In this document: one piece after another, positions 5,216 to 48,054 of the stretch
How positions within the stretch are numbered: the first letter of the stretch is position 1
Layout: each line of letters opens with the position of its first letter
Source of the DNA: Methanospirillum hungatei JF-1
GTDB lineage: Archaea > Halobacteriota > Methanomicrobia > Methanomicrobiales > Methanospirillaceae
Length of the DNA: 64,000 nt
Direction of reading: 5' to 3'
Assembly: GCF_000013445.1 (NCBI RefSeq)
Contig: NC_007796.1
Span: 3,012,936-3,076,935 of the forward strand
The notes under the pieces: generated by a model
Databases searched by the model: none
What the model saw: the letters and a program-made list of their open reading frames with translations, nothing else
Told to the model about the DNA's origin: nothing
Position numbers and translations under genes: made by a program

Positions 5216-7867
5216 GTGGATTCCGGTAGTTCAAAAATAAATCAGGATATCCTGGAGACCTTTACCAAGGGAAAAAAATCCCTGAGTATATCAGATATCT
5301 CCCGTTTATCCGGCCATCACAGACACACCGTTGCCCGGTACTTAGACAACCTGGTATCATCCGGAAAACTTGAGATGCGCCAGCATGGGCAGAAGAAGAA
5401 GTACTATTTGTCAGATATCCAACCGGAATCCTCCATACTCAACTTTTCGCCTCACATGCTCATCATCCTGAACATGGATCTCTCCATTAGATGGGCAAAT
5501 GATTCATTTTTACGGATGATACATTCAACAATTGAAGCCATCTCCAACCTGAGCATTGAAGCACTACATCTTGATGACCTGTTTGGCCCTGACCTTGTTG
5601 CAGCAATCCGGATGGTCCGACCTGGTGAAACACGATCAGAAGAGGCACGAATTATCCGTGAAGAGAAAGAGACGCTGTACCTGTTTACCATATCCGCCGT
5701 CTCGTTCTTCCAGGAACGTCCTGCGCTTGTGATCACCGGGGAGGACATTACTGAAAAGAAGGCCCTTCAGGAGGCAATACGTACAAGTGAGTCAAATCTT
5801 CGTCTTATCACCGAATCAGTTCATGACATGATCATCAGGTGGGAGCCTGACGGAATGATATCCTATGTCTCACCTGCATGTGAACTGCTCACCGGGTATG
5901 TCTCCCAGGAACTGATGGGAAAGACGATATCAGAATTTATTCATCCCGAAGATCTCCCCCGGTTTCAGAATGGTGGTGAAACCGAGACGGTGAACTGGTC
6001 CCGCCTCCCTTCATCATTCAGATTCCGGACGCTGAAAGGGAAATGGATATGGTTTGAGACCACCACAACCCCCCGGCTTTCAGAGACCGGCGAGATTCTG
6101 GACTATATTTCGGTCTGGCGGGATATTACCGCATGGCTTGAGGCAGAGACCAAGCTGGCACTGAGTGAAGAAAAATACCGCCGTCTTTTTGAGGGTGCAA
6201 AAGATGCCATTATCCTTATGGAACTGACCGAGAACTTAAAGCATGCACGATTTCGTGAAGTAAATAACCTGACCTGCCAGCTGACCGGGTATACCTATCA
6301 GGAGTTTCTGACCCTTTCCCTGTCTGATATCATTCCTGAATCCATGGAGGAGTATTTTAATGAGGTTACTGAAAAGTTCATGCAGAATGAACAGGGGTTC
6401 TTTGAGATAGATCTCGTTCGCAAGGATGGGAGTCTGGTCCCGGTTGAAGTAAATGCCCACCTCTTTTACCTGCAGGGAAAACCGGTTGTTCTCGCAATTA
6501 CCCGTGATATCACTGAACGGAGAAAGACTGAAGCAGCGATTAAAGAAGCACACCAGCGTCTTGAAGACATACTTGAATTCCTCCCCGACCCGGTCTTCGT
6601 GCTTGATACTGAAGGAACAGTGACGGCATGGAACCGGGCTATGGAAGAACTAACCGGGACAAAAAAGGAGGATATTATCGGATGTGGAGATTATGCCTGT
6701 GCAGTCGCCTTTTATCATCAGAAACGGCCGGTCCTCGCAGATTATATCCTCCATCGCGATGAAACCGTCCTCTTTCGGTATAACAATCCGGATATCGACG
6801 GAGACCGGGTCACGGTTGATGTTCAGACCCTGCATCCGGTTACAAAACAGCGAATCTGGCTGTGGATAAAGGCAGCTCCAATATATAATCTCAACGGGGA
6901 CATCATCGGAGTCATTGAGACCCTGAGGGATATCAGTGAACGAAAGATAATGGAGTTGGAGATTCGAAAACAGAACGCGATTTTCGAAGCGGTAAGCCGG
7001 GCTGCTTCAGATATTCTCCAGTCAGCAAACTTTGAAGATGCTGCTCTTCGGACCATCGGCTTGATTGGAGAGGCAACATCCGTCAGTCGTGTCTGCCTTC
7101 TTGAAAAGGCACCCTCATCCAGTATCCAGCTTATCAGATCAGAACTTGAATGGAATGCGAAAACAGGAATTGTCGGACGGACCCGGTCTCCCTTATCAAT
7201 GAGACTGAAAAATGACGATGAAGGATCGATCATAGAGGATGTGTTCGTACAAGAGAAGACCATCTACAGTCTGGTAAAAGATCTCAAGGGAAGTGATCGT
7301 CGGATTCTTGAACCGGAAGGAGTAAAATCAATCCTTCTCGTCCCTATCAAAACCAAAACTGATATCTGGGGTGCTGTCGGGTTTCTTGAAACAAACTCTG
7401 AGCGTATCTGGAGTCGAAAAGAGATTAGTGCTCTAGAAATCGGATCATCGCTCATCGGAAGTGCTCTCATGAGATTTGAAGCCGGGGAAAATCTTGAAAA
7501 GAGTGAGAAACAGTTCAGAACCCTGGCTCAGAACATTCCTGGGATCGTGTTCAGGGTCTCACTTGCCGGTTCAGACATGGAGTTTTACAACGACCATCTC
7601 GAATCGGTGACCGGATACACCGCAAAAGAACTTGCAAGCGGACAGATCAGCTCTCTTATCCCACTTATTTTTCCTGATGACAAACAGCGGGTTATTCAGG
7701 CAAAGAAAGAGTCAATCAAAACAGGAGAGCCATACGAGATAGAGTACCGGATTATTGACAAGTTTGGACATATAAGGGTCATGAGCGAGCGTGGCAGACC
7801 AGTCGCTGATGAAACCGGACTTGTCGTCAGTATTGACGGCATTATTCAGGAAGTTGGATCAGGATAG
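5216..7867 (+). CDS. HTH-multi-PAS-GAF sensor protein without kinase domain
   Basis: This 883-aa cytosolic sensor starts with a winged-helix/HTH segment (about 20-67, SISDISRLSGHHRHTVARYL). Five PAS-type repeats follow at about 70-180, 190-305, 318-425, 438-565 and 745-880, with a GAF domain at about 570-735 between the last two. PAC-like ends (ITEKKALQ, ITERRKTE, ISERKIME) mark the repeats. There is no HisKA or HATPase domain, so it is probably a DNA-binding one-component sensor. The start is GTG 5216, chosen because a TATA-like aataaatctta lies about 25 nt upstream and no ribosome site is present, as in leaderless archaeal genes. It ends in TAG with no coding continuation after it. Confidence 0.85.
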   Translation: MDSGSSKINQDILETFTKGKKSLSISDISRLSGHHRHTVARYLDNLVSSGKLEMRQHGQKKKYYLSDIQPESSILNFSPHMLIILNMDLSIRWANDSFLRMIHSTIEAISNLSIEALHLDDLFGPDLVAAIRMVRPGETRSEEARIIREEKETLYLFTISAVSFFQERPALVITGEDITEKKALQEAIRTSESNLRLITESVHDMIIRWEPDGMISYVSPACELLTGYVSQELMGKTISEFIHPEDLPRFQNGGETETVNWSRLPSSFRFRTLKGKWIWFETTTTPRLSETGEILDYISVWRDITAWLEAETKLALSEEKYRRLFEGAKDAIILMELTENLKHARFREVNNLTCQLTGYTYQEFLTLSLSDIIPESMEEYFNEVTEKFMQNEQGFFEIDLVRKDGSLVPVEVNAHLFYLQGKPVVLAITRDITERRKTEAAIKEAHQRLEDILEFLPDPVFVLDTEGTVTAWNRAMEELTGTKKEDIIGCGDYACAVAFYHQKRPVLADYILHRDETVLFRYNNPDIDGDRVTVDVQTLHPVTKQRIWLWIKAAPIYNLNGDIIGVIETLRDISERKIMELEIRKQNAIFEAVSRAASDILQSANFEDAALRTIGLIGEATSVSRVCLLEKAPSSSIQLIRSELEWNAKTGIVGRTRSPLSMRLKNDDEGSIIEDVFVQEKTIYSLVKDLKGSDRRILEPEGVKSILLVPIKTKTDIWGAVGFLETNSERIWSRKEISALEIGSSLIGSALMRFEAGENLEKSEKQFRTLAQNIPGIVFRVSLAGSDMEFYNDHLESVTGYTAKELASGQISSLIPLIFPDDKQRVIQAKKESIKTGEPYEIEYRIIDKFGHIRVMSERGRPVADETGLVVSIDGIIQEVGSG

Positions 7868-29989: not shown

Positions 29990-30763
29990 ATGAACCACAC
30001 CAGAATTTTCGTAATTTTTTCCCTGATACTCATAATTTCACCAGTCTCTTCCCTTTCAGTTCATTTCCTTGATGTTGGTCAGGGTGATGCTACGCTTATC
30101 AGGCATAATGGCCATACCATGCTTATCGATGCAGGGGATATGGATGCTGGCCCTGACATTCTCTCTTATCTTCAGTATCAGGGAGTTACTCGTCTGGACG
30201 TTCTGGTCTCCACTCATCCGCATACTGACCATATAGGGGGAATGAGCGATATTCTGCAAGCGCTACCGGTCAGTCTCTATGTGGATAATGGAGCGACCCA
30301 TACCACCCCGGCCTACCGTAATCTGGAAAAAGCCCTGATAAAAAAACAGATCCCATATGCAACCGCGAAAAAGGGTGATACAATTCCCTTCACCGATGAT
30401 ATCACTATTCTTGTCACCTCTCCGGATGAGCTCACCGGTGATTTGAATGAGGACTCACTTGCCCTTCTGCTTACCTACGGAGAGGTCAGGATCTTCTTCA
30501 CCGGGGATTGTGAGAGTTGTGATGCTTCATGTGATATCGTGAAACTTGCACATCATGGCTCCAAGGGATCTGCGACCCGTGCCATCCTGAACGGAGATAT
30601 TCCTGACTGTGCAATCATCTCGCTGGGCATAGACAATGAGTATCATTATCCGGCCCCTTCCACGATCAATGCCCTGAAAAAGGCCGGGGTTGAGGTATTC
30701 AGGACTGATGAAGAAGGAACGATTGTTTTGAGGACTGATGGAGAAAAATACTGGTTCGTCTAA
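29990..30763 (+). CDS. Secreted metallo-beta-lactamase-fold hydrolase (ComEC C-domain-like)
   Basis: This 257-aa protein has a signal peptide (1-21) and a metallo-beta-lactamase fold: the opening strand SVHFLDVGQGDATLI, metal-binding THPHTDH near residue 75, FFTGDCE near 170 and KLAHHGSKGS near 185. The VGQGD start and HHGS motif are those of stand-alone relatives of the ComEC competence hydrolase. The substrate outside the cell is unknown. It is followed after one base by a DUF3006 gene. Confidence 0.88.
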   Translation: MNHTRIFVIFSLILIISPVSSLSVHFLDVGQGDATLIRHNGHTMLIDAGDMDAGPDILSYLQYQGVTRLDVLVSTHPHTDHIGGMSDILQALPVSLYVDNGATHTTPAYRNLEKALIKKQIPYATAKKGDTIPFTDDITILVTSPDELTGDLNEDSLALLLTYGEVRIFFTGDCESCDASCDIVKLAHHGSKGSATRAILNGDIPDCAIISLGIDNEYHYPAPSTINALKKAGVEVFRTDEEGTIVLRTDGEKYWFV

Positions 30764-30764
30764 T

Positions 30765-30983
30765 ATGGTCCTGGCGATTGTTGACCGGGTTGAGGATGAT
30801 GTATTGGTACTGGTCACCCCTACCAAGCCAAATCGGGAGATCCATCTCCCCTGTTCACTCTTTCAGGGAATGAATGAAGGAGACGTGGTAAGGATAACCG
30901 TAGAGAAGGACGAGGAGAAGAGGAAAGATATTGAGAAAGATATCAAAGACCAGAGAACAAGACTGAAGCGGGTAAATCTTTAA
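30765..30983 (+). CDS. DUF3006 family small protein
   Basis: This 72-aa protein starts at ATG 30765, one base after the hydrolase stop. It has the DUF3006 layout: a small beta-barrel start (AIVDRVEDDVLVLV), an EGDVVRITVEKDE turn, then a charged helix. DUF3006 genes often follow ComEC-like MBL genes, as here, and the two are probably cotranscribed. Function unknown. Confidence 0.8.
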   Translation: MVLAIVDRVEDDVLVLVTPTKPNREIHLPCSLFQGMNEGDVVRITVEKDEEKRKDIEKDIKDQRTRLKRVNL

Positions 30984-31203
30984 TTTTTCTGGTGTGGGAG
31001 CAGGATCTCTTTTGCTCATCATTGTGTGAGAGCCCTCATTCAATCATTCCTGAATATATGGCTGCAACGCCTGACAGAACGTTATTCTCCCATTTGGTAT
31101 GTCAGACATGTGCAAACAATTACTACCCGCCCAAACAATTAAACTTTCAGAGCCGAATTAAAGTATCATCACAGTCCGACTCCAAAGTCCCAGTCTGACG
31201 CAT

Positions 31204-32892
31204 ATGATTCCGATTTTCCATTCCAAAACCAGGAAAAGACCTCCGCGGTGGGCATTGGTACTTCTGGCTCTCCTGTGCATCATGGCAGTATGCTGCTCTC
31301 CTGCTCTTGGTGCTCGAGATGTCAGAGTACCTCTGACTGAGCTCAGGCCCTCCCTGTTCACCGATGAGCAGGGAAACCCGGCCGGGTTTTTTGTCGACCT
31401 TATCGAGGATCTGGCTAAAAAAGAAGGTTGGAGTGTCATCTGGGTAAGTGGTACACTCTCTGAGAGCTGGGATCGCCTGTCACGGGGTGATGTCGATCTC
31501 ATGCCTGCGGTGACGGTCACGCCAGAACGGCTCATACTCTATGATTTCACAAATGAATCGGTTCTCTCGATCTGGTCACAGGTCTATGCACGCCCTGATT
31601 CGGGCATCAATACCATCCTTGATCTGGAAGGTAAACGAGTCGCAATGGTCAGGGGAGCATCCAGTGGGGTGGGACTTCGGGACTATGCAGAAAAATTCGG
31701 AGTAACTGCCATATATCTGGAGAAGGACACAGCGACCGATATTTTTACCGCTGTTTCAGAAGGAGAAGCAGATGCCCTTGTGATGTTTAACTCTGCAGGT
31801 CAGGAGGAGGTGAAGGAATACGGGCTTGCCACAACCCCGGTTATGTTTAACCCGGCACAGTTTGGGTTTGCGGCATTATAGGGGAAGAACCAGGATCTTC
31901 TCAAGGCGATCGATCCCTATATTGCAGAAAGCAAGAAGAATCCATCCTCCATCTACAGCATGTCAATGCAGAGATGGTATAGCATTACAGCCGAAGAGAT
32001 AATACCTGCTTTTCTCTGGTGGATTCTTGGAGGAGTTGCCAGCCTTGCCTCTCTCTTTGTTATGATGAGTTATCTTCTCCGGCGTGAGGTAAGACGGAAG
32101 ACGGCTGAACTTGCCAGACAGAACGAGGAACTGGTTCGGAAAAATGAAGAGTTACGAGCTGCATATGACCAACTTACCGCGATGGATGAAGAACTGAAAG
32201 ATAACTTTTATCAACTGAGAAAAAGTGAAAGTGCACTCATTCAGGCTCGGAAAAAACTAAACCTCCTCCATACACTCATCAGCCAGGATATCAGGAATGC
32301 ATTCTTTAACCTGGCAGGGTTTATCCAGATTTCAAAGGAATCTGAATCCTTTGATGAAGCAAAGATAATTTTCGAGAAGGAAGAGAAGATTTTACAATCG
32401 GTTCAGGACAACCTCTCCTTTTCAGAGAAATATCAGAATCTCGGGATCAATCAGCCACGATGGCAGAATTTTGAATATGTTCTTCTCAGTGCCATATCCC
32501 ATCTTGATCTTTCACATATCTCAAGGAGAATAGATCTGCCTGATATCGAAATATTTGCAGATCCCCTGCTTGAGGATGCATTTTTGTCAATCATGGATGC
32601 GATCGCTAGGCAAGGGGATCAGGTTACCAGAATCGGGCTTTCGTGTCAAAAGAACGCAGACACCATTACCATCATCATTGAATCTGATGGTCAGGGAATA
32701 CCGGCAAACGAGAAGGAGCAGGTTTTCAAATGGGAATATTTGGGAAAAAGCGGGACCAGCCTCTTTCTTGCCCGGGAGATACTCTCAATAACGGACATAT
32801 CACTGCAGGAGACCGGAGAACCAGATGCGGGGATTCGTTTTGAAATTACGGTACCGGAGAGTGAATACCGCATCGTGGAAACGAATGAGTGA
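31204..32892 (+). pseudogene. SBP_bac_3 sensor with degenerate kinase module, interrupted by in-frame TAG
   Basis: One frame of 563 codons contains a single TAG at 31879-31881 (codon 226). Before it are a signal peptide and most of a family 3 solute-binding domain ending FGFAAL. After it the domain continues without shift (GKNQDLLKAIDPYIAESKKN), then a membrane helix (IIPAFLWWILGGVASLASLF), a coiled coil, and an HK-like module. In the module the expected phospho-acceptor histidine is glutamine (LISQDIRNAFFNL). The ATPase part resembles the tail of the protein at 3627. A Lys codon (AAG) one change from TAG is expected there. Restart at ATG 31960 is possible. TAG ends normal genes elsewhere here, so a nonsense mutation is more likely than pyrrolysine. 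Confidence 0.75.
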
Positions 32893-33186
32893 GTGGAGAT
32901 CCTGGACATTACCACAGAGAAACTTTCTGAGTACCGGATCTATAGCCGGGCTGAAATTCGAATTATCCTTATAGTGCCCAACAAAACGTATTGGAATAAT
33001 CGGTTTGAAAAAAAGGTTATTCCAAGACGTGCATTCGAATTGCACTTCATAGGAATAAGCAAAATTTTTGAATTACTTCAGAAAATTTTGCATTATCCTA
33101 TAATCATACATCTTTTTTAGGGCTATGAGAGATAACGGTGCTTTTATTACCTGACAACATCGTCGTATCAGATTCTCTGTGTACAG
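32893..33186. other. AT-rich gap with several inverted repeats
   Basis: Between 32980 and 33115 are GGAATAA/TTATTCC around 17 nt, the near-palindrome gtgcattcgaattgcac, and an AAAATT-rich repeat pair. No coding frame is convincing. They may be terminators or remnants of a small element. Confidence 0.35.
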
Positions 33187-33504
33187 GTGAACAATGAAGC
33201 GGATTATCCAGGGAAAGGCATCGTTCTTTTTCTCACTACATTCATCCTTATTGCAGTTTTTGTATCCGGTATTCCGGCAGATCCCGCATCAGGTGGCGAT
33301 GCTGTCATCCCTCCATTTGGATGGGTTCAGGTCCCGAAACTGGTCTGTGATACCTGCACTGAAAATCCAATGGCCTTGTTATATAATTATTCGAATATCT
33401 CGGTCACCAGACAATATCCAACTTTTTTGCGAAAAAAAGTCGCTGATTGTGATAAAAAACAGGTGACCGGTAGAGATCCCGGCATCTTCCTTTCGTCGCA
33501 ATAA
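33187..33504 (+). CDS. Hypothetical exported or membrane-anchored protein, 105 aa
   Basis: The frame from GTG 33187 has a hydrophobic stretch (IVLFLTTFILIAVFVSGIPA) after a short polar N-terminus. A globular segment with CDTC and the look of a surface domain (FGWVQVPKLVCDTC, then YNYSNISVTRQY) follows. An overlapping frame from ATG 33194 is less protein-like. It has no recognised family. It converges with the C45 hydrolase gene. Confidence 0.5.
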   Translation: MNNEADYPGKGIVLFLTTFILIAVFVSGIPADPASGGDAVIPPFGWVQVPKLVCDTCTENPMALLYNYSNISVTRQYPTFLRKKVADCDKKQVTGRDPGIFLSSQ

Positions 33505-33511
33505 GGCTGCC

Positions 33512-34642
33512 TTATGACGCCTCATTCCCGAATAAGGGGGCCAGATCAACCTTCTGCCACTCCTTGTCCATGACATTCATCCAGAGCGTCTGGTTCTGTG
33601 GCTCGAAGACAACCTGATGGTTGCTTGAGTACTTCCCGCCTCCGAGGTCAGAATGACAGAACTTTGATCCTCCATCCTCGATACAGACGTCACGGATCTC
33701 CATCATCTTCTCTGCATCGATCATTCCCTTCGCCTCTTCTGCCTGGCGGAGGAGGTTGTTATACCGGGAGAGTGAGTGTTCAGGGGGCTCTGGGAGGTTC
33801 CAGGATGGATCAACAAAATGGTTTGCAGCTGCAATAACTCCGTCACCGGTCCTTTTTACCGTCCGGTCGGTTGATTTCTCAAGCACAAATGCCTCGTCCG
33901 GCCCTGCAACATCCACGATCCAGCCAACATCAGGGGCAGTTCCGTTTATTGCCGCCTCCAGGGCATTCAGGTCAGAGTAATCGAACATGAACCGGTAGTA
34001 TTCAGTGATGAATTCCGGTCTGGTCTCGGGGGCATTATCTTCCCGGCCACAGTTATCATCAGCAATGAAGAGTCCTTTGTTGTTCATGAAGGTCTCTGGT
34101 CGTGCTCCGGCAGGGCTCCAGGTCGCAATGCTGTTGCTGCCATCCGTGGGGCGGTATATGGCAAGGACATACCATTCTGTGAGCGGCATTATAGAATCAG
34201 CAAGATCCCAGTTGCGGGAGACTACCGGGGAACCATCGGTTGTGTAATTGTCCCAGGCGGCAAGGTATGAACATGATGCAGGAACCGGTTCTGGGTTTGA
34301 AGAGGATAATAACAGGAAGATTGGCCCGTAATAGAGGAATGCAATATCATCATAGGTGAGCCCTGATGTCTCTGCCATACCGGTAAAGATCTCCCTTACC
34401 CGCTCGGGATAATATGCCGGAACCATTCTGGCATCCTTCATGATCTCTTCCTTTGTCATTCCCTGGCTTGTGATAGTGTTCATGAGGAATGCGTATTCTT
34501 CAGTCAGTTCTGTTTTCATAAGACCGCCATACTGACGTCCCATCTCACGATACGAACCGGTAAGGACAATGACCGGATAGAGACCAGCCTGATACCGTTG
34601 TCCGTCCTCAAAGGTGGCGATGAGAGGGAGATCAGTCGGCAT
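33512..34642 (-). CDS. C45-type (acyltransferase/NTN) hydrolase
   Basis: This 376-aa protein resembles the peptidase C45 / acyl-CoA:6-aminopenicillanate acyltransferase family of N-terminal nucleophile hydrolases: GSYREMGRQYG near residue 29, then the candidate nucleophile in PASCSYLAAWD near 123. SPVVSRNWDLADS and a late NHFVDPSW segment follow. Relatives cleave amide bonds in peptides or lipids. The preceding in-frame codons encode an export signal, but a TGA at 34643-34645 separates it from this ATG. As read, the enzyme would stay in the cytoplasm. Confidence 0.8.
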   Translation of the reverse strand: MPTDLPLIATFEDGQRYQAGLYPVIVLTGSYREMGRQYGGLMKTELTEEYAFLMNTITSQGMTKEEIMKDARMVPAYYPERVREIFTGMAETSGLTYDDIAFLYYGPIFLLLSSSNPEPVPASCSYLAAWDNYTTDGSPVVSRNWDLADSIMPLTEWYVLAIYRPTDGSNSIATWSPAGARPETFMNNKGLFIADDNCGREDNAPETRPEFITEYYRFMFDYSDLNALEAAINGTAPDVGWIVDVAGPDEAFVLEKSTDRTVKRTGDGVIAAANHFVDPSWNLPEPPEHSLSRYNNLLRQAEEAKGMIDAEKMMEIRDVCIEDGGSKFCHSDLGGGKYSSNHQVVFEPQNQTLWMNVMDKEWQKVDLAPLFGNEAS

Positions 34643-34732
34643 TCAGGTGGGAGATTGCTCCTGCTCCGATGAAAAGACGGCAGCAGTGATGGCCAGCAAA
34701 CAGAGGAGTAAAGTAACGAGAATTGCTTTCAT
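34643..34732 (-). other. Signal peptide segment severed from the C45 hydrolase by TGA
   Basis: The codons from ATG 34732 encode 29 residues with a basic start and hydrophobic core (KAILVTLLLCLLAITAAVF), then SSEQEQSPT, TGA, and directly in frame the hydrolase ATG. A TATA-like tttatata lies about 26 nt upstream on the minus strand. The natural gene therefore probably began here. Loss by a point mutation is the simplest reading. Confidence 0.65.
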
Positions 34733-34923
34733 AATGGTATGAGTTCTTTTTAAGTATATAAAGGGGCTGATGGTAGAGGGATGCACCGGATTTATTGGAG
34801 GATGAGCGTTTTTTAATTTTGTCTGATTATAATTTAGGGAGTGTTTTTTGAGGATAGTATCTAAACGATCCCCGTACACAATAATCATAATCACATAGAA
34901 ACTAAATATTATTGAGAAGAGGA

Positions 34924-35142
34924 ATGTTCCAAAAATTCAACATACTCATAGAACCTGGAGAGGATGGATGGTTTGTTGTAACCGTACCGGGGCTTCCTGG
35001 CTGCATCACACAGGGAAAGACAATAGAAGAAGCTACAGATAATGCAAAAGAGGCAATTGAAGCATATCTGGAAGCAAATCCAAATCATATTACTCTTCAG
35101 GCTAATCAGGTTTGCGTCAGAGAAGTGCAGGTTAATGTCTAA
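34924..35142 (+). CDS. hicB: HicB-family antitoxin
   Basis: This 72-aa protein has the HicB fold: FNILIEPGEDGWFVVTVPGL followed by PGCITQGKTIEEATDNAKEA, the partial RNase H-like core of HicB antitoxins. No DNA-binding C-terminus (HTH or RHH) is present, so it is a short form. The ATG at 34924 is chosen over TTG 34912. It should neutralise HicA and repress the operon, although the DNA-binding part is missing. Confidence 0.85.
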   Translation: MFQKFNILIEPGEDGWFVVTVPGLPGCITQGKTIEEATDNAKEAIEAYLEANPNHITLQANQVCVREVQVNV

Positions 35143-35147
35143 TAGTA

Positions 35148-35378
35148 ATGAGTAAATTTCCTCTTCTTCCCGCCCGGAAAGTAATAAATGCCATGATTCG
35201 GTTGGGATATTTCATCGATCATCAGAAAGGGAGTCATGTTGTTCTTAAAAGAAACGATGGACAGAGAACAGTCGTAATTCCTGACCTTAATGAACTGGAT
35301 AGAGGGACTCTGAAAGCAATTCTGAAGCAGTCCGGAATTGAAATCGAGGAGTTATTGTCGGTTCTTCTATTGCAATAA
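35148..35378 (+). CDS. hicA: HicA-family mRNA interferase toxin
   Basis: This 76-aa protein is a dsRBD-like HicA (YcfA) toxin: LPARKVINAMIRLGYFI, then KGSHVVLKRNDG with the catalytic histidine, and a closing ELDRGTLKAILKQSGI. It cleaves mRNA when not bound by HicB. It starts 5 nt after hicB, so the pair is an operon. The order is antitoxin first, the reverse of the usual hicAB. Confidence 0.85.
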   Translation: MSKFPLLPARKVINAMIRLGYFIDHQKGSHVVLKRNDGQRTVVIPDLNELDRGTLKAILKQSGIEIEELLSVLLLQ

Positions 35379-35413
35379 TTGATTGGATAATACACATTCT
35401 GATAGATAGTAAC

Positions 35414-35456
35414 TCACCCTGCAACTGCCGAACAGAGTAACTCCGCCTGTTGCATC
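35414..35456 (-). other. Severed 3' end of hsdR, including left target-site duplicate
   Basis: Joining these bases to the hsdR frame at 37182 (one copy of the duplicate kept) gives VMQ followed by QAELLCSAVAG and a TGA stop at 35414-35416. That is the standard HsdR ending. The bases GTTGCATC at 35449-35456 recur at 37174-37181 on the other side of the IS. Confidence 0.85.
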
Positions 35457-37173
35457 CCACATTCGCCAGATCTTTTTTCAACAATAGAATTTTTCGTACT
35501 CCGGCCCAAGCAATCGCAATATCTTCAATAGTTCTCGATCCAAATTCTGGATAGATGAATGGAGTGCATCATTGACAGAAATAATACATGACTTAATCTC
35601 TCTGAATTTAAAAAAAATCCATTTGAGCGTTGGACGAGAGGTAGGTTTCTTCTTCTGATTCAACACCGTTTCATCTTCTTCTTTCAGCCTTTTTCGCAGC
35701 AGCATTTCAGTATATGAGTAAACCATGAGGCAGAGAACCATAACCATACATAAAGCCTCGATCCTTTTTTCACTTTTCAGATAAACTTCAGCAACCCGGA
35801 ATGATTTGTCCTTTAAAAACCGGAAACCTTTTTCGACAAGCATCTGTCCTTTATAGTGATTCAGAACCGTTTCAGAATCCAAACTCAAAACATTCGTTGC
35901 AAGAATAAATCTGCCCAGATACTGTTTTTCACTTTCAACGAAATCCTGAGCAAGTTCAACCCTTGCATCGATCGAATATTGTGGGATTAACGTTTCTCCT
36001 GCTTTTGGGCGCCCCTTCTTACCATTTTCCCGTTTATAACTGACCTTGATCCTTGAATCCACCAATTTTACTAAAGGTGTTTCATTAAGATAGCGTAAGA
36101 GAGCGTTATTGGCATCTGTTTCACATGCATAGCATACTTTAGAAATCTGTTTTAACCCTTTTAATGCGGCTTTGAACCTCACAGGGAGGTTTTTCTCAAA
36201 CGTCTTCAATTCTCGAGCTTTCATCTCTTCAGATGAGACAACAATCCATTTTTGAGGAACACCACCATAATGTGAGTCAACGCTACTGCAAGAATACCGT
36301 GGATCTGAGGTAGGAGTGAAGAGAAGATCAGATTTGAGTAACTCTGTCATCTCATTTATTGTGGCTGGGACATTTGATATCCACCTTGTTTCCGGACCGA
36401 GGGTTTTGATGTTTTTATCAGTATACAGGGCACTGTCACCCATGAAGATTACATCAGGATCAAATGTGAATGAATCTTGCAATGATAGGATTGTTTGCAC
36501 AAGAACTTCCTTATCTGATTCGTTGCCATCGTGTGCACGAGCAAAAATCGGTATCCCGTGTTGGTTAACCACCATACTTAAGGCAAATCTGTTTAAATCC
36601 CAGCGTTTGTCTTTTGGATGTCCCTTTGTAATTTTGATACATCCATCTCCGGATTCATTTCCATATTCACCATGAACACTGAAATTGGTTGTATCAACAT
36701 GACAAAGCTGTACTCCATCTTTGTAAACAGTAAACATCTGGGTGACAAGATCAGTAAAGAGCTTGCTGGGGCCATATGCATATATCTTATCCAAAAGGCG
36801 ACCAATGACTGATTCATTTAGATTTTTTGCAGAAATATCCGGACCTATGAGACGTTCCAAATCAAGATGCTTGCAGTATTCGGGAAAAAGATAGAGTCGT
36901 CTCTCTGTGAATCCAAGTCCGTTGAGAATGAGGGCTAATAAAATTTGAGAACTTGATATTTGATGTTGACCAATTTTAGGGATTGCCCGGTCAATTATAG
37001 GAGCTAAACCAAGCTTATGGAACGTGCCTGCAACTATTCCAAGATGATCAATGGTTTTTATGGAGTCTATTTCTAATGAAACATCCTCATCTTTCATTAA
37101 TTATAGTAATGGAGATCTTCTTAGTTATATAGTTTACTATTATATAAAATTTTAATAGATCTGACGAATATAG
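35457..37173 (-). mobile_element. IS1634-like insertion sequence
   Basis: This 1,717-bp element is bounded by 17-bp imperfect inverted repeats: left ccacattcgccagatct (35457-35473), right agatctgacgaatatag (37157-37173), 14 of 17 matching. An 8-bp direct repeat GTTGCATC (35449-35456 and 37174-37181) is a target-site duplication. It carries one transposase. Family is inferred from the transposase. Insertion removed the last 11 codons of hsdR. Confidence 0.88.
35478..37097 (-). CDS. IS1634-family transposase (DDE)
   Basis: This 539-aa transposase has an N-terminal DUF4277-like region (HLGIVAGTFHKLGLAPIIDR), then the DDE/DDD RNase H-like core: VDTTNFSVHGEYG, FMGDSALYTDKN, and a C-terminal region with VEKGFRFLKDK supplying the catalytic glutamate. 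These are typical of the IS1634 group of the IS4 superfamily. The frame is intact, so the element may still be active. It lies between the element's terminal repeats. Confidence 0.9.
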   Translation of the reverse strand: MKDEDVSLEIDSIKTIDHLGIVAGTFHKLGLAPIIDRAIPKIGQHQISSSQILLALILNGLGFTERRLYLFPEYCKHLDLERLIGPDISAKNLNESVIGRLLDKIYAYGPSKLFTDLVTQMFTVYKDGVQLCHVDTTNFSVHGEYGNESGDGCIKITKGHPKDKRWDLNRFALSMVVNQHGIPIFARAHDGNESDKEVLVQTILSLQDSFTFDPDVIFMGDSALYTDKNIKTLGPETRWISNVPATINEMTELLKSDLLFTPTSDPRYSCSSVDSHYGGVPQKWIVVSSEEMKARELKTFEKNLPVRFKAALKGLKQISKVCYACETDANNALLRYLNETPLVKLVDSRIKVSYKRENGKKGRPKAGETLIPQYSIDARVELAQDFVESEKQYLGRFILATNVLSLDSETVLNHYKGQMLVEKGFRFLKDKSFRVAEVYLKSEKRIEALCMVMVLCLMVYSYTEMLLRKRLKEEDETVLNQKKKPTSRPTLKWIFFKFREIKSCIISVNDALHSSIQNLDRELLKILRLLGPEYEKFYC

Positions 37174-40100
37174 GTTGCATCACCGTCTGAATAGCATTCT
37201 CCTGTTTGTCCGGAGGATACCCGTTCACCCGGAGGATTCTCTTTATCGCAACCCGCATCTTTGCCCGAACCGATTCACGTGATGACCAGTCGATCGTAAC
37301 ATTCTCCCTGATGGTCTTTACCAGGTCCTGGGCTATCTTTTTGAGTATGTCATCACCGAGAATCACCACCGCACTGTCATTCACACCGAGTGCATCGTAA
37401 AATGCAAGTTCTGCCTCGGTAAGTCCCAGATCCTCTCCTCTCTGCTGAGCCTCCCTGATCTCCCGTGCAATCTGCGCAAGTTCTTTTAAGATCTCCTGGG
37501 TCGTGACCTTCCGGTTATTGTACTTGTTTATCGTCTGCTCAAGCATCTCGGAGAATTTTCTTGCTTCGGTTGTGTTTTTCCGGGTTCGTGCCCGGATCTG
37601 ATCATTCAGCAGCCGGGTCATGGCAGCAATTGCCACATTCTGATTTTTGTATTTCAGGAGGTCATTGAGGAACTCTTCGGAGAGGACTGAGATATCTCCG
37701 ACATCCTTTCCCATCTCCTTGAAGATATCGACAATACCAAGGGGGACAATGGATTTTGAAACTATCTGCTTTACCGCCAGATTCAGTTCGTACTCTGATT
37801 TTCCTGCTCCTTCTGATGTCTTTATGATTTGTGCCCGAACGGCCTGGAAATACGCGACATCTTCCCGGATCTCAATGGCTTTTTCATGGGGGAGAGCAAG
37901 GGCAAAAGCCTGGGAGAGTTCAAGCACGTGCTGCATAAAGTCTGATTTCCGTTCAGGATCATCAAGGACATAGTTGAATCCTGCCTGAAGGATGGAAAGA
38001 CGAGTCGCTGCCGGAGCTCCCCGCCAGCCTGACCAGTCAAATCCATGGAAGAGATGACAACAGACCTCGTACTTCTCCATCATCTTATCGACTATCCTCT
38101 CCTGGTCAAATACGGGATCCCCTTTGCCTTTACTCTCCGTGTAGGTGACCAGGGCTTTTTTCAGTTCTTCGGCAAGACCGATGTAATCAACAATAAGTCC
38201 ACCAGGCTTATCTCTCCATACCCGGTTTACCCTGGCGATTGCCTGCATAAGAGTATGGCCCTTCATGGGCTTGTCGATATACATAGTATGCAGACAGGGA
38301 ACATCAAATCCGGTCAGCCACATATCACGGACAATTGCGATTTTGAATGGATCTTCCGGATCTTTAAACCGTTTTGCAAGGAGTTCCCGGCCTGATTTGG
38401 GTCTGATGTGTTTCTGGAAATCTTTCTCATCGCCTGCTGAACCGGTCATGATCACCTTCAGGAACCCCTCATTGTCTGAATGAGAATCCCAATCAGGTTG
38501 CCTCTCAACCAGTGCTTTGTAGAGCTCCACACAGATCCGCCTGCTCATGCAGACGATCATCGCTTTCCCTTCGATGGCATCTGACCGCTGCTTAAAGTGG
38601 CGGATGAGATCATCAGCAACCTCATTGATTCGTTTCTCATCTCCGACGATGGCCTCAAGGGCAGCCCATTTTGTCCGGAGTTTCTCTTTTCTGATGACTT
38701 CTTCGTTCTCAGTGACTTCTTCAAACTCCTGGTCAATGAGCGGTTTTATCTGCTCATTCATCCTGATATCGACGATACGGCTTTCGTAATAGATAGGAAC
38801 GGTTGCCTTGTCCTTGATGGCCTGCTGGATATCATAGACGCTGATGTATTCACCAAAGACGTTTCTGGTGACTTTATCCTGAAGGTCGATGGGTGTCCCG
38901 GTAAATCCGATAAATGAGGCGTTTGGGAGAGCATCACGGATGTACTTGGCAAATCCGTAACTTATCTCTCCTTTCTTGCTTACTTTTCCATGCATCCCGT
39001 ACTGGCTCCGGTGTGCCTCATCTGCGATGACAATGATGTTCTTCCGGTCAGAGAGGAGGGGATAGGTCTCCTTGTTCTCATCTTCGGGGAAGAACTTCTG
39101 AATGGTAGTGAAGACGACACCACCAGATGCGACACTGAGCAGTGTCTTCAGATGGTCCCGGCCCTCTGCCTGGATGGGCGTCTGGCGGAGGAGTTTTCTG
39201 CACCGGGAGAAGGTTCCGAAGAGTTGATCGTCAAGATCATTCCGGTCGGTGATGACCAGGATCGTCGGGTTCTGGAGTGATGGAGTCTGGATGATCTTTC
39301 CTGAGTAAAAGACCATGGTGAGACTTTTTCCTGACCCCTGGGTATGCCAGACGACTCCGCACCGGCGGTCTCCGACGTCACTGATAGCTGTCTCGGTAGA
39401 CCTGACCGCCAGGTTTACGGCATGATACTGGTGGTATCCGGCCAGTTTCTTGATGGTGTTTCCCCGTTCATCCTCTTCAAATACGATAAAGAACCGGATC
39501 AGGTCAAGAAGCCGCTTTTTGTTACAGACACCCCGGATGAGCACTTCGATCTCAGGGATATGATTCGGGGCTTCCTGTGCTCCGTCAATCGTCCTCCACC
39601 GGGAGAACCGTTCAAGTGATGCGGAGAGGGTTCCAATCCGTGTCTGGATTCCGTCTGAGATGATCGCCATGGTATTGTATGAGAAGAATGAGGGGATCTC
39701 CTGCATATACGTCTGGAGCTGGTTATGGGCAATGGTCAGGGTGGCCCGTTCATCGGTGGGGTTTTTGAGTTCAAAGATGATGACCGGGATTCCGTTGATG
39801 AAGAGGACGATATCAGGCCTTCGGTGGTTTTTCCCTTCCTGAATGGTGAACTGATTGACGACAAGGAACTCGTTGTTCTCCGGGTGTTCAAAGTCAATAA
39901 GCCTGACCTGATCTCCACCAACGGATCCATCCTTCCGCCGGTATTCAACCGTGATTCCACCGGAGAGCATCTCATGAACGGTCTTATTATTCTGTATGAG
40001 GGTGGTATGACCGGGATTGGTGAGGATCTTCTGTGCTGCTTCATGGGCATCACAGGGGAGCGTTTTGTTGAGCCGGAAGATGGCGTCTTCGAGTCTGGAC

Positions 40101-40249
40101 CCAAGGAGGTATTCTTCAAACGAGTTTCGGATCTGATCCCGTTCTCCGGGTGCGACCTCATACCCATAGAGGACCTCGTACCCAAGGTCACGAAAGATAT
40201 CAAGTGCTGTTTCTTCTACGTCAGATTCACATAATCCCGTTGTTGCCAT
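37121..40249 (-). CDS. hsdR: Type I restriction enzyme R subunit, C-terminus altered by IS insertion
   Basis: This 1,042-aa motor/nuclease subunit has an N-terminal PD-(D/E)xK nuclease ([11 protein letters not shown] then IIFELKNP), helicase motif I in [11 protein letters not shown] near 305, DEAHRSQYG near 400, GFTGTP and the [13 protein letters not shown] region. The complex cuts DNA at a distance from unmethylated sites. The natural ending is lost: after VMQ the IS end supplies 17 foreign residues ([17 protein letters not shown]). Since the nuclease and motor are intact, activity could survive. Confidence 0.93.
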
Positions 40250-40254
40250 GATTG

Positions 40255-41670
40255 TTACCGTTTGTCGGCAGTGATTTCAGAGAGATATTCGTGTAATACT
40301 TCTTTTCCAGCAGGGGTTATCCGGTACTTCTGATTTTTGCTTGTTGGTCTGTCCGGAATGGTGAGCTCAAGAAGACCATCTTCTACTAATGGCTGGAGAA
40401 TATGTTTTCGGAATTTAGTCCTATCAGTTCTCCCAAAATATGAGAGTATTTCAACTAATGTACTCTCCTTCTGGCATATCTTCAGGAGATCCATCTTCTC
40501 TCTTCTTTGTGCTATCTTAGTGCCATCTTGGTGTCGGTCATCTTCAGGAGTCTCCATCGGAGTGAAGGTTACGGTGAAAAACCCATCTGCATCAAAGACC
40601 GGTTCCGGGCACCCAGATTCCCGTGCTCCTTCCCTCATCCGCTCGATTCCGGTCCCGGCCTTTTCGATAAACCCTATCCGGTGATAGAGGTCAGCAATGA
40701 TGGGGTTCCTTCTGACGCTCTTATGTCCGAGATCGGTCTGCTGCATCCCCGGAGGAAGGCCGCCAGGACTTATTATCTCAATCCGGTCAGAGAAGATCTG
40801 GACAAAGACGTTCGCACCTTCGATAAACCAGTCCCGGTGCATGACCGCATTGGTGATTGCCTCCCGATGTGAAGCCATCGGGTATTCAGGGATCTCTTCT
40901 CTTTTCAGGCCTTCGATCTTGTACGCAAGCCGGGTATTTCGCTCGATAAAGCGGAGACTATCCTCGATATCGGCAACTGCTCCACCTGCGAAGTCCTTCC
41001 GGTCAAGGATACGGACATTGGTCGTCCCCTGAAAGAGGATGCAGGTGATGTATGCCTGGTTGAAGAACCTCCGGGGATCTTTTGCAAAGAAGAGGATGCC
41101 GACATTCCGGAAGAGAAGTTTTCCGCCTGATCGCTCTGTTGTTTCGATATTGACGAGAATATTTTCCTGGTTTCCATTCGGTGATATCCCACTCTGTGAG
41201 AGCCAGTTCGTGAATTTTTCTTCGTCTAAATCTTCCGGATACCTGAATTTTGGTGATACGGAGAGTTCAAACCTGATGGCTCCTTCTTTCTGGAAGAAGG
41301 TCCGGATCTCTTCACGGGTGAGTTTCTGGGTGACGGCCCCCTGTCGCCAGAAGAACCCGTCGCTGCACTGGACTGGTTTTTCAGAACTCTCCCGGACCGT
41401 GATGATGGTGACGGTGTCGATGTGGGTGAGAAGGATCTTGACCGGCGGGTCACAGTTCCGGGCGATGTCCTGTATTCGTGCCCTGATGTCATTCGTGTCT
41501 GTGATACCCTTGACCGATCCGTCGTCCCTGACTCCGAGGAGGATTTTGCCTCCGGTTGTGTTGGCAAAGGCTACGAGTTCCCGTGATAAAGCAGAGGAGA
41601 GAGATTCCTTGTACTCGAGCATGGAGCCTTCGCCTTCTTGGAGCAGGATCGAGAGATCAGTACGGTTCAT
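40255..41670 (-). CDS. AlbA_2 (Schlafen AAA_4)-domain regulator with winged helix
   Basis: This 471-aa protein has an N-terminal AlbA_2 domain ([11 protein letters not shown], then [18 protein letters not shown]), a central HATPase-like segment ([14 protein letters not shown], then [15 protein letters not shown]) and a C-terminal winged helix (near 400-465). It matches the COG2865 type of predicted regulator. Such genes often lie in type I RM loci. The role is inferred as nucleic-acid binding or regulation. Start ATG 41670 overlaps the region of the hsdS stop; an upstream GTG at 41682 is possible. Confidence 0.85.
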
Positions 41671-41671
41671 G

Positions 41672-42631
41672 TCAGGATACACCGGTGAATTGTTCGGGGT
41701 TGTCTATGGGAAGTTCGCCGGAGAGGAGTTTGGGGAGGAGGGTATCACGTGTTTGCGACAATTCTTGATTTTGTATTAAATTAGATTTTATTTTCGTAAA
41801 AATCGGGTTTATCAATAAACTATATGCCTGCATTAGTTTTTTTGGTGGTAAACATAGTGATAAGGGCTTAAAATTCTTTTTACTTATCTCTAAAAAAGTA
41901 GTTCCATTGGCATTTCCTATGATCAACTCCATATTTGCTTTAAGCCATTCAAAGATGAAATAATTATTACAGGATTCATTCGGAATTAACGCAATAAAAC
42001 CTTGATTAATTGAGATTGGGGCAATTGTTATTGAGACATATCCAATAGGAGCTCTTGATGATAAAAGAACTGTACCAATAGGTAAAATCCCAGAACTTAT
42101 TTCTCCAACACCTAATTCAGTGATTGTTCTTTCCGTTGATAATATGAAGGGTGTTTTACTATTTGACAAATCTTTAGGAGTGCAAAACGGAATATTTCCG
42201 CCCCAATAAGATTCATTTTCAGTTGAAGGAGTCGAACCACCTTTTACTTCCAGTATATCTCCAATCGGTTTGATCTGCCACCCTTTCGGGATCTCCTGCC
42301 CCTCAACTTCTTCAAACTCGCTCGGAAACAGGGCCGCCGTTGCCGCATCCATCCCCTCGGGCTGCCGTCCTTCGGCCTTGGCCCGGACCGGGTCGAAGTC
42401 GATGAACCAGCTCGTGAAGATGGCCCGGGCGATGGATTCGAGGGTTTCGTTCATCCGGCGGTTGAGTTCGATCTTATCGTCGAGGGTGCCGAGGATGTGG
42501 GCGATGGCTTTTTGGGTGGGGAGGGGAGGGAGATTTATAGATATTTTACGAGCTGAACCTACGTTAAAATGCTGTTGGACTGCACCTACCAAATGGGATT
42601 GAATATGAGAATGAGTAATTGAGTTAATATA
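41672..42631 (-). pseudogene. hsdS: Type I specificity subunit, 3' fragment
   Basis: These 319 codons hold the end of the first recognition domain, the central conserved region (LPPLPTQKAIAHILGTLDDK, then KIELNRRMNE), the second recognition domain (GGSTPSTENESYWGGNIPFC) and the final conserved helix. Joined to 44760-45122 they give a 440-residue HsdS of normal length. The frame continues upstream into intron sequence to 42775, which is not natural coding. The join is exact in frame (E codon 44760-44762 next to Y codon 42629-42631). Confidence 0.85.
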
Positions 42632-46944: not shown

Positions 46945-48054
46945 CTAGCGTCCCACCTTCTCTGAATAAATATCCTCATCCTCTTTCCCGAACTGATTCT
47001 GTGCCCTCTTCATCGCACTCTTCAGTTTCGCCTCAAGGAGTTCCCTCGGCGGTAGTTCAGTCAGGTATTCAGCAACCCGTATCCCACTGTCCGAAAGCCC
47101 GAGCAGCTCCACATGCTCAGTAGACTTCCCGGCACAGAGAATCAGACCCATCGGTGACTCTTCACCCGGAACCCGTTCATATTTGTCAAGCCACCGGAGA
47201 TACAGTTCCATCTGACCCTTATCAGCAGCCTGAAACTTTCCCAGTTTCAGGTCAATCGCAATCAGGCACCGAAGCCGGCGGTGAAAGAAGAGGAGATCAA
47301 TATAATAATCCTCTGCGTCGATGGTGATTCTCTTCTGCCTCGCGATAAACGAGAAATCAGAACCCATCTCAAGAATGAACCGCTCGATCTCCCGGATAAT
47401 ACCCGATTCAATATCCTTTTCAGAGTAGGTATCAGAAAGCCCGAGGAAATCAAGGAAATACGGATCCCGAAAGACCAGGTCCGGACTCATCTGATCCTCT
47501 TTCCGGAGAGCTTCGAGCTCCTGCCTGGCTAACTCTTCCGGTTTTCTTGAAAGGGCTGTCCTCTCAAAGAGCATGCCCTGGATCTTCTCCCTGAGATGAC
47601 GGACACTCCATCGCTCAATCCGGCACATCTCTGCATAAAAATCCCTTTGTAATGAATCCTTCAGAGGAAGAAGAGCTACAAAATGCGACCAGCTTAATTG
47701 TCGTGATAGTGTCGTGACAATATCCTTGTCAGGAAAAAGTTCTGAAAACTGAATCATCTTTCGAAGATTTTTCTCTGAAAAACCAGTTCCATATCGGGTA
47801 ACCAATTCTCGTGACAGTGTCACGACAATGTATTCTCCATACGAGGCTCGATCATCATGAAGTATTTCGGTGCGAACACTGCTCCCAATACTCCAGTACA
47901 GCTGAACCATCTCGTAGTTGATACCTGAAGCAATCCGAAGATGAGTCTTATCAATATACGAGGATAACTCAGTTAGCAGAGCAGAGATTCGCTCTTTAGA
48001 AATCTCATCAAAACCGGACAGGCTCTTGATTGACTTGTCTGCCTGCTTTCTCAT
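46945..48054 (-). CDS. DUF1016 (YhcG) PD-(D/E)xK nuclease, second paralogue
   Basis: This 369-aa protein shares the layout of its neighbour: a DUF1016 helical domain ([20 protein letters not shown], then [17 protein letters not shown]) and the nuclease motifs IDLLFFHR and IAIDLKLG. In the last motif aspartate takes the place of glutamate found in the other copy. ATG 48054 overlaps the hsdM stop by 4 nt. It ends in TAG immediately before the next ATG, indicating translational coupling. Confidence 0.88.

Follow-up and report, generated by a model that had tools for sequence, protein, structure and literature searches.

The sensor gene at positions 31204-32892 (+ strand) of the window, i.e. the 64,000-nucleotide stretch of Methanospirillum hungatei JF-1 DNA analysed here, raises the question of whether the TAG codon that interrupts it is read as an amino acid or marks a broken gene. 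The genome is a single contig of 3,544,738 bases. The TAG occupies 31879-31881 (+), which makes it codon 226 when numbering begins at the first ATG (31204). With the TAG read through, the frame comprises 562 codons, contains this one internal TAG and closes at the TGA at 32890-32892; an open run as long as the 336 codons after the TAG would arise by chance with a probability of about 1e-9, given the local base composition. Under standard translation the frame 31204-31881 (+) gives 225 amino acids and ends inside a solute-binding domain, leaving a remnant at 31882-32892 (+) that carries the end of this domain, a membrane stretch, a coiled coil and an HATPase-like domain. The TTG at 31255 is preceded by a Shine-Dalgarno-like 4-mer and the first ATG is not; if the TTG is the true start, the TAG becomes codon 209 and not 226. 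The promoter and terminator scan, built for bacterial sigma-70 sites, gave only chance-level results.

The Pfam search of the read-through protein showed an SBP_bac_3 domain (PF00497) over residues 47-247 (31342-31944, + strand), with 55.3 bits against a gathering cut-off of 26.4, an NMT1 match of 29.9 bits overlapping the same region, and a marginal HATPase_c match over residues 459-553 (32578-32862, + strand; 26.6 bits against a cut-off of 26.4). An N-terminal signal or anchor, a membrane stretch near residues 269-290 and, following it, the coiled coil were recognised by eye. The nine best relatives of solved structure align as far as residues 251-263 of the interrupted protein, and solved binding proteins extend 25-37 residues beyond the TAG column, so that the stop falls inside the binding fold. 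In 6h30 a Lys residue is aligned at this column in both of its domains. An AlphaFold prediction for the protein read through the TAG had a mean pLDDT of 48.5, and no inference was therefore drawn from it.

Eleven other genomes of the genus were searched for orthologues, defined as matches covering the binding domain at 60% identity at least. Uninterrupted orthologues were found in four of them (G002, G004, G006 and G011), none of which contains an internal stop. Across the TAG, the identity to the full-length orthologues is 76% for G004, 64-65% for G006 and 60-61% for G011; the orthologue of G002, which is taken as the metagenome-assembled genome (MAG) M59, is present as two pieces on two contigs with 78% and 73-74% identity. 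It was claimed in the first-pass annotation that domain and sequence continue across an in-frame TAG and that a lysine would fit its position. The frame and the orthologue identity on both sides of the codon bear out the former, and the latter agrees with the presence of Lys in this column in all four orthologues (AAA in G004, G006 and G002, AAG in G011).

In the other seven genomes only weaker matches were obtained; five of these assemblies are incomplete (64-88%), but G003 and G010, at 99% completeness, are without the orthologue as well. The G006 locus C66:11907-13439, with 27% identity across residues 47-558 and among the matches listed, was classed as a paralogue. For two of the four, orthology is backed by gene order, since five upstream genes are common to JF-1 and G002 in the same order and the convergent downstream gene is common to JF-1 and G004; for G006 and G011 none of the 12 neighbours tested was matched within the 13-14 kb compared. 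The contig scan returned one orthologue piece, in the MAG Methanospirillum hungatei isolate M59, and a distant match (25%) to the kinase part in a Patescibacteria MAG.

The surroundings of the gene differ in their divergence from M59. Four upstream genes show dS values of 0.15-0.23, the values from the DUF3006 gene (30738) through the sensor gene are 0.68-1.28, and the next genes common to both genomes, at 37121-40249 and 40255-41682, have dS of 0.38 and 0.48, respectively. The region of about 30740-37100 is a divergence island, which possibly arose by homologous replacement in one lineage. Within it lie a HicB/HicA pair (34912-35378) and, at 35478-37097, a DDE transposase with DUF4277, all unmatched in the corresponding M59 contig, and a gene at 33512-34642 which matches this contig in three short pieces only.

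The best reading of the locus is an ordinary one: a recent nonsense mutation that leaves a 225-residue product and makes the gene a young pseudogene in JF-1, to which we assign a probability of about 0.9. This preference, already expressed in the first-pass annotation, is supported by the Lys found at the site in 4/4 orthologues, by the orthologues being uninterrupted, and by the failure of the searches described below to find pyrrolysine machinery. In a sensor gene that is otherwise intact, a substitution would have converted Lys codon 226 into TAG, at which release factor would terminate translation. The resulting fragment would miss the last part of the binding domain (21 residues according to Pfam, 25-37 judging from the solved relatives), together with the membrane stretch and everything cytoplasmic, and for this reason the function of the product is probably lost. 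No ribosome-binding site is evident near the start of the 3' remnant, which is probably untranslated. When intact, the protein would be expected to capture a solute on the outer side of the membrane and to pass a signal inward, though probably in another way than an ordinary histidine kinase, since catalytic residues are missing (see below). For annotation, a single pseudogene describes the frame best, neither two genes nor a pyrrolysine protein; beyond annotation the significance of this result is small.

The age of the stop was approached through the constraint on both sides of it. Compared with the two nearest orthologues, dN/dS is about 0.18 before the TAG and 0.16-0.18 after it. The changes unique to JF-1 are 14 nonsynonymous to 8 synonymous before the TAG and 12 to 14 after it; the same ratios on the two sides of the TAG column are 14:13 and 38:27 for M59, and 25:23 and 20:24 for G004. 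Neither a second stop, nor a frameshift, nor relaxed selection was detected after the TAG. This lack of decay suggests that the mutation is young, or that it represents a clone variant or a base-call error; it fits a young mutation and equally fits a protein that is still made in full.

An error of sequencing, or a mutation of the sequenced clone alone, would leave the gene of the species intact. The undecayed downstream part and the breaking of the frame by one codon only are what such an event would produce, but the JF-1 genome is reported, in the accessible portion of its description, as a finished Sanger sequence of 14.5x (PMC4704411), and we consider this explanation unlikely. The present data do not distinguish an error from a clone variant or from a young mutation that has become fixed.

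Since both parts of the gene remain constrained, and in-frame ATG codons occur at 31960 and 31966, just upstream of the membrane stretch, fission into two functional products, a binding protein that is secreted and a membrane protein with a start of its own, was also considered. The split into two working genes was rejected as highly improbable: the cut lies inside the binding domain rather than between domains, no stop divides any of the four orthologues, and neither ATG is preceded by a Shine-Dalgarno-like 4-mer. The last point is weak evidence, because the ATG at 31204 lacks such a motif too, and only 23 of the 39 window ORFs used as a control (from a set of 46, with a start accepted anywhere within the first 40 codons) possess one.

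It is equally hard to credit that a near-cognate or unrecognised suppressor tRNA reads the UAG leakily, without pyrrolysine machinery, and that enough of the full-length solute-binding pseudokinase is still made in this way. If true, such read-through would explain the undecayed 3' part, in which no relaxed selection is visible. Against it, we know of no archaeal precedent for UAG read-through outside pyrrolysine, and no CTA, TTA or TCA anticodon was present among the 48 tRNA genes obtained by a tRNA search, whose 47 loci were read with ARAGORN, a list that is incomplete, as the tRNA-Leu(GAG) of the window is missing from it and the genome paper, in its accessible portion, counts 51 tRNA genes (PMC4704411).

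The insertion of pyrrolysine at the TAG by PylRS and tRNA-Pyl, giving a full-length protein, is the explanation that we regard as least credible of all. Pyrrolysine is a lysine derivative, which suits the Lys found at this site in the orthologues, and the host is a methanogen. On the other side, pylS, pylD and pylT, which were among the genes that the first-pass annotation had named for a check, were sought and not found. The three PylS matches in the JF-1 genome are weak, the best scoring 32.5 bits where the cut-off is 178.15, and look like class II synthetases cross-matching; PylS matches were likewise obtained in 13 of the 14 control genomes, one of them over the cut-off. At a strict threshold PylS was over the cut-off in none of the 232 genomes of the order that were screened, 135 of which are at least 90% complete, and Methanosarcina acetivorans was the one positive among the 14 controls. 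PylD gave no match in JF-1 (one of the 14 controls was over the cut-off), and a Methanosarcina pylT query, to which 59 of the 392 genomes screened across the phylum gave a match, remained unmatched in the JF-1 genome, where two of the four first-look candidates were scored. According to Pfam the protein is not a methylamine methyltransferase. The RNA fold after the TAG is unremarkable (z -1.54, with 12 of 200 shuffles as good), and a recoding RNA element of a known type was rejected for this site, because the three Rfam matches obtained there (E 0.39-0.92, all on the - strand) are far below their gathering scores. Pyrrolysine is not mentioned in the accessible text of the genome paper (PMC4704411), nor are the words "pseudogene", "pyrrolysine", "histidine kinase" and "tRNA" in that of PMC11346949. 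The ranking of pyrrolysine below a nonsense mutation, made at first from the letters of the DNA, is thus upheld: with PylS, PylD and pylT not found, the nonsense mutation is much the likelier.

The use of TAG as a stop has less bearing on this decision. It was confirmed as an ordinary terminal stop of the frames 5216-7867 (+ strand) and 46945-48054 (- strand), and it ends 8 of the 46 window ORFs that overlap little and reach 150 amino acids or more; the interrupted gene contributes two ORFs to this set, one of which belongs to the eight. In archaea that bear pyl genes, UAG serves both as sense codon and as stop, according to the available part of PMC2933860, and stop use in JF-1 would therefore be compatible with pyrrolysine; ordinary TAG stops alone are weak evidence against it, and the case rests on the missing machinery. 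Among the matches of the sensor protein listed in its own genome, 5 of 67 contain an in-frame stop (two TAG, including the gene studied here, two TAA and one TGA), a mixture which indicates that the interruption of kinase-like genes is not TAG-specific. On re-extraction of the two TAA paralogues the stop was located inside the match in one (L024) and not in the other (L026). The former (G000:C1:365457-366164) encodes a paralogous kinase that has both the His and the Asn box, and is broken by the in-frame TAA. A total of 99 pseudogenes is given for JF-1 in the accessible portion of the genome paper (PMC4704411).

The kinase-like part was compared in an alignment of the JF-1 gene, its three full-length orthologues and 39 paralogous loci, from which M59 was left out; the paralogues were taken from the best-scoring matches, 19 from the same genome and 20 from relatives, and some are mutually orthologous. 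The H-box position is occupied by Gln in JF-1 (codon 361, 32284-32286, + strand) and by Q, K and R in the three orthologues, and by His in 22 of the 39 paralogues. The N-box Asn, present in all 39 paralogues, is missing in JF-1 and its three orthologues (Ala, residue 466, in JF-1), and the G2 Gly, kept in 38 of the 39, is Ser in these four proteins (residue 519 in JF-1). The pieces of M59, inspected by eye, have R, M and S at the H-box, N-box and G2 positions. Paralogues without the His and with the Asn account for 3 of the 19 from JF-1 and 14 of the 20 from relatives. The kinase-like part of the JF-1 gene and its orthologues (loci L028, L029, L030, L031 and L039) thus has none of the three residues and is nevertheless under purifying selection, as a likely conserved pseudokinase joined to a solute-binding sensor would be.

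As these catalytic residues are gone and dN/dS is well below 1, the sensor is likely to be related to histidine kinases and conserved, but non-catalytic, so far as can be judged from sequence. Of the initial description as a solute-binding/kinase protein, the solute-binding half stands on the 55.3-bit SBP_bac_3 match; the kinase half, with the H-box His, N-box Asn and G2 Gly all missing, is doubtful even for the intact relatives. The phrase "histidine pseudokinase" was absent from the papers listed by our literature search. The loss of catalytic residues across constrained sensor orthologues offers a small lead on signalling without phosphotransfer in methanogens.

In comparison with known systems, the JF-1 gene shares with the mtmB, mtbB and mttB genes of Methanosarcina an in-frame TAG, a methanogen host and a lysine position, and differs from them in encoding no methyltransferase, in having orthologues with plain Lys codons, and in a genome where pylS, pylD and pylT were not found. 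It is like an ordinary nonsense-mutated pseudogene in its single stop, its uninterrupted orthologues and the lack of detected recoding machinery, and differs from one in that decay is not visible so far. The non-enzymatic kinase-like proteins of an archaeal two-component census keep the His and are without HATPase, as described in the accessible part of that work (PMC5847659), an arrangement different from that of the JF-1 sensor group. The binding domain is common to the gene product and to its best matches of solved structure by sequence, 6h30 (glutamine transporter binding domains, matched over residues 49-263) and also 3h7m, named "Sensor protein" (residues 48-237); what sets the JF-1 protein apart from such SBP_bac_3 binding proteins and sensors is a kinase-like part that has lost its H-box His, N-box Asn and G2 Gly.
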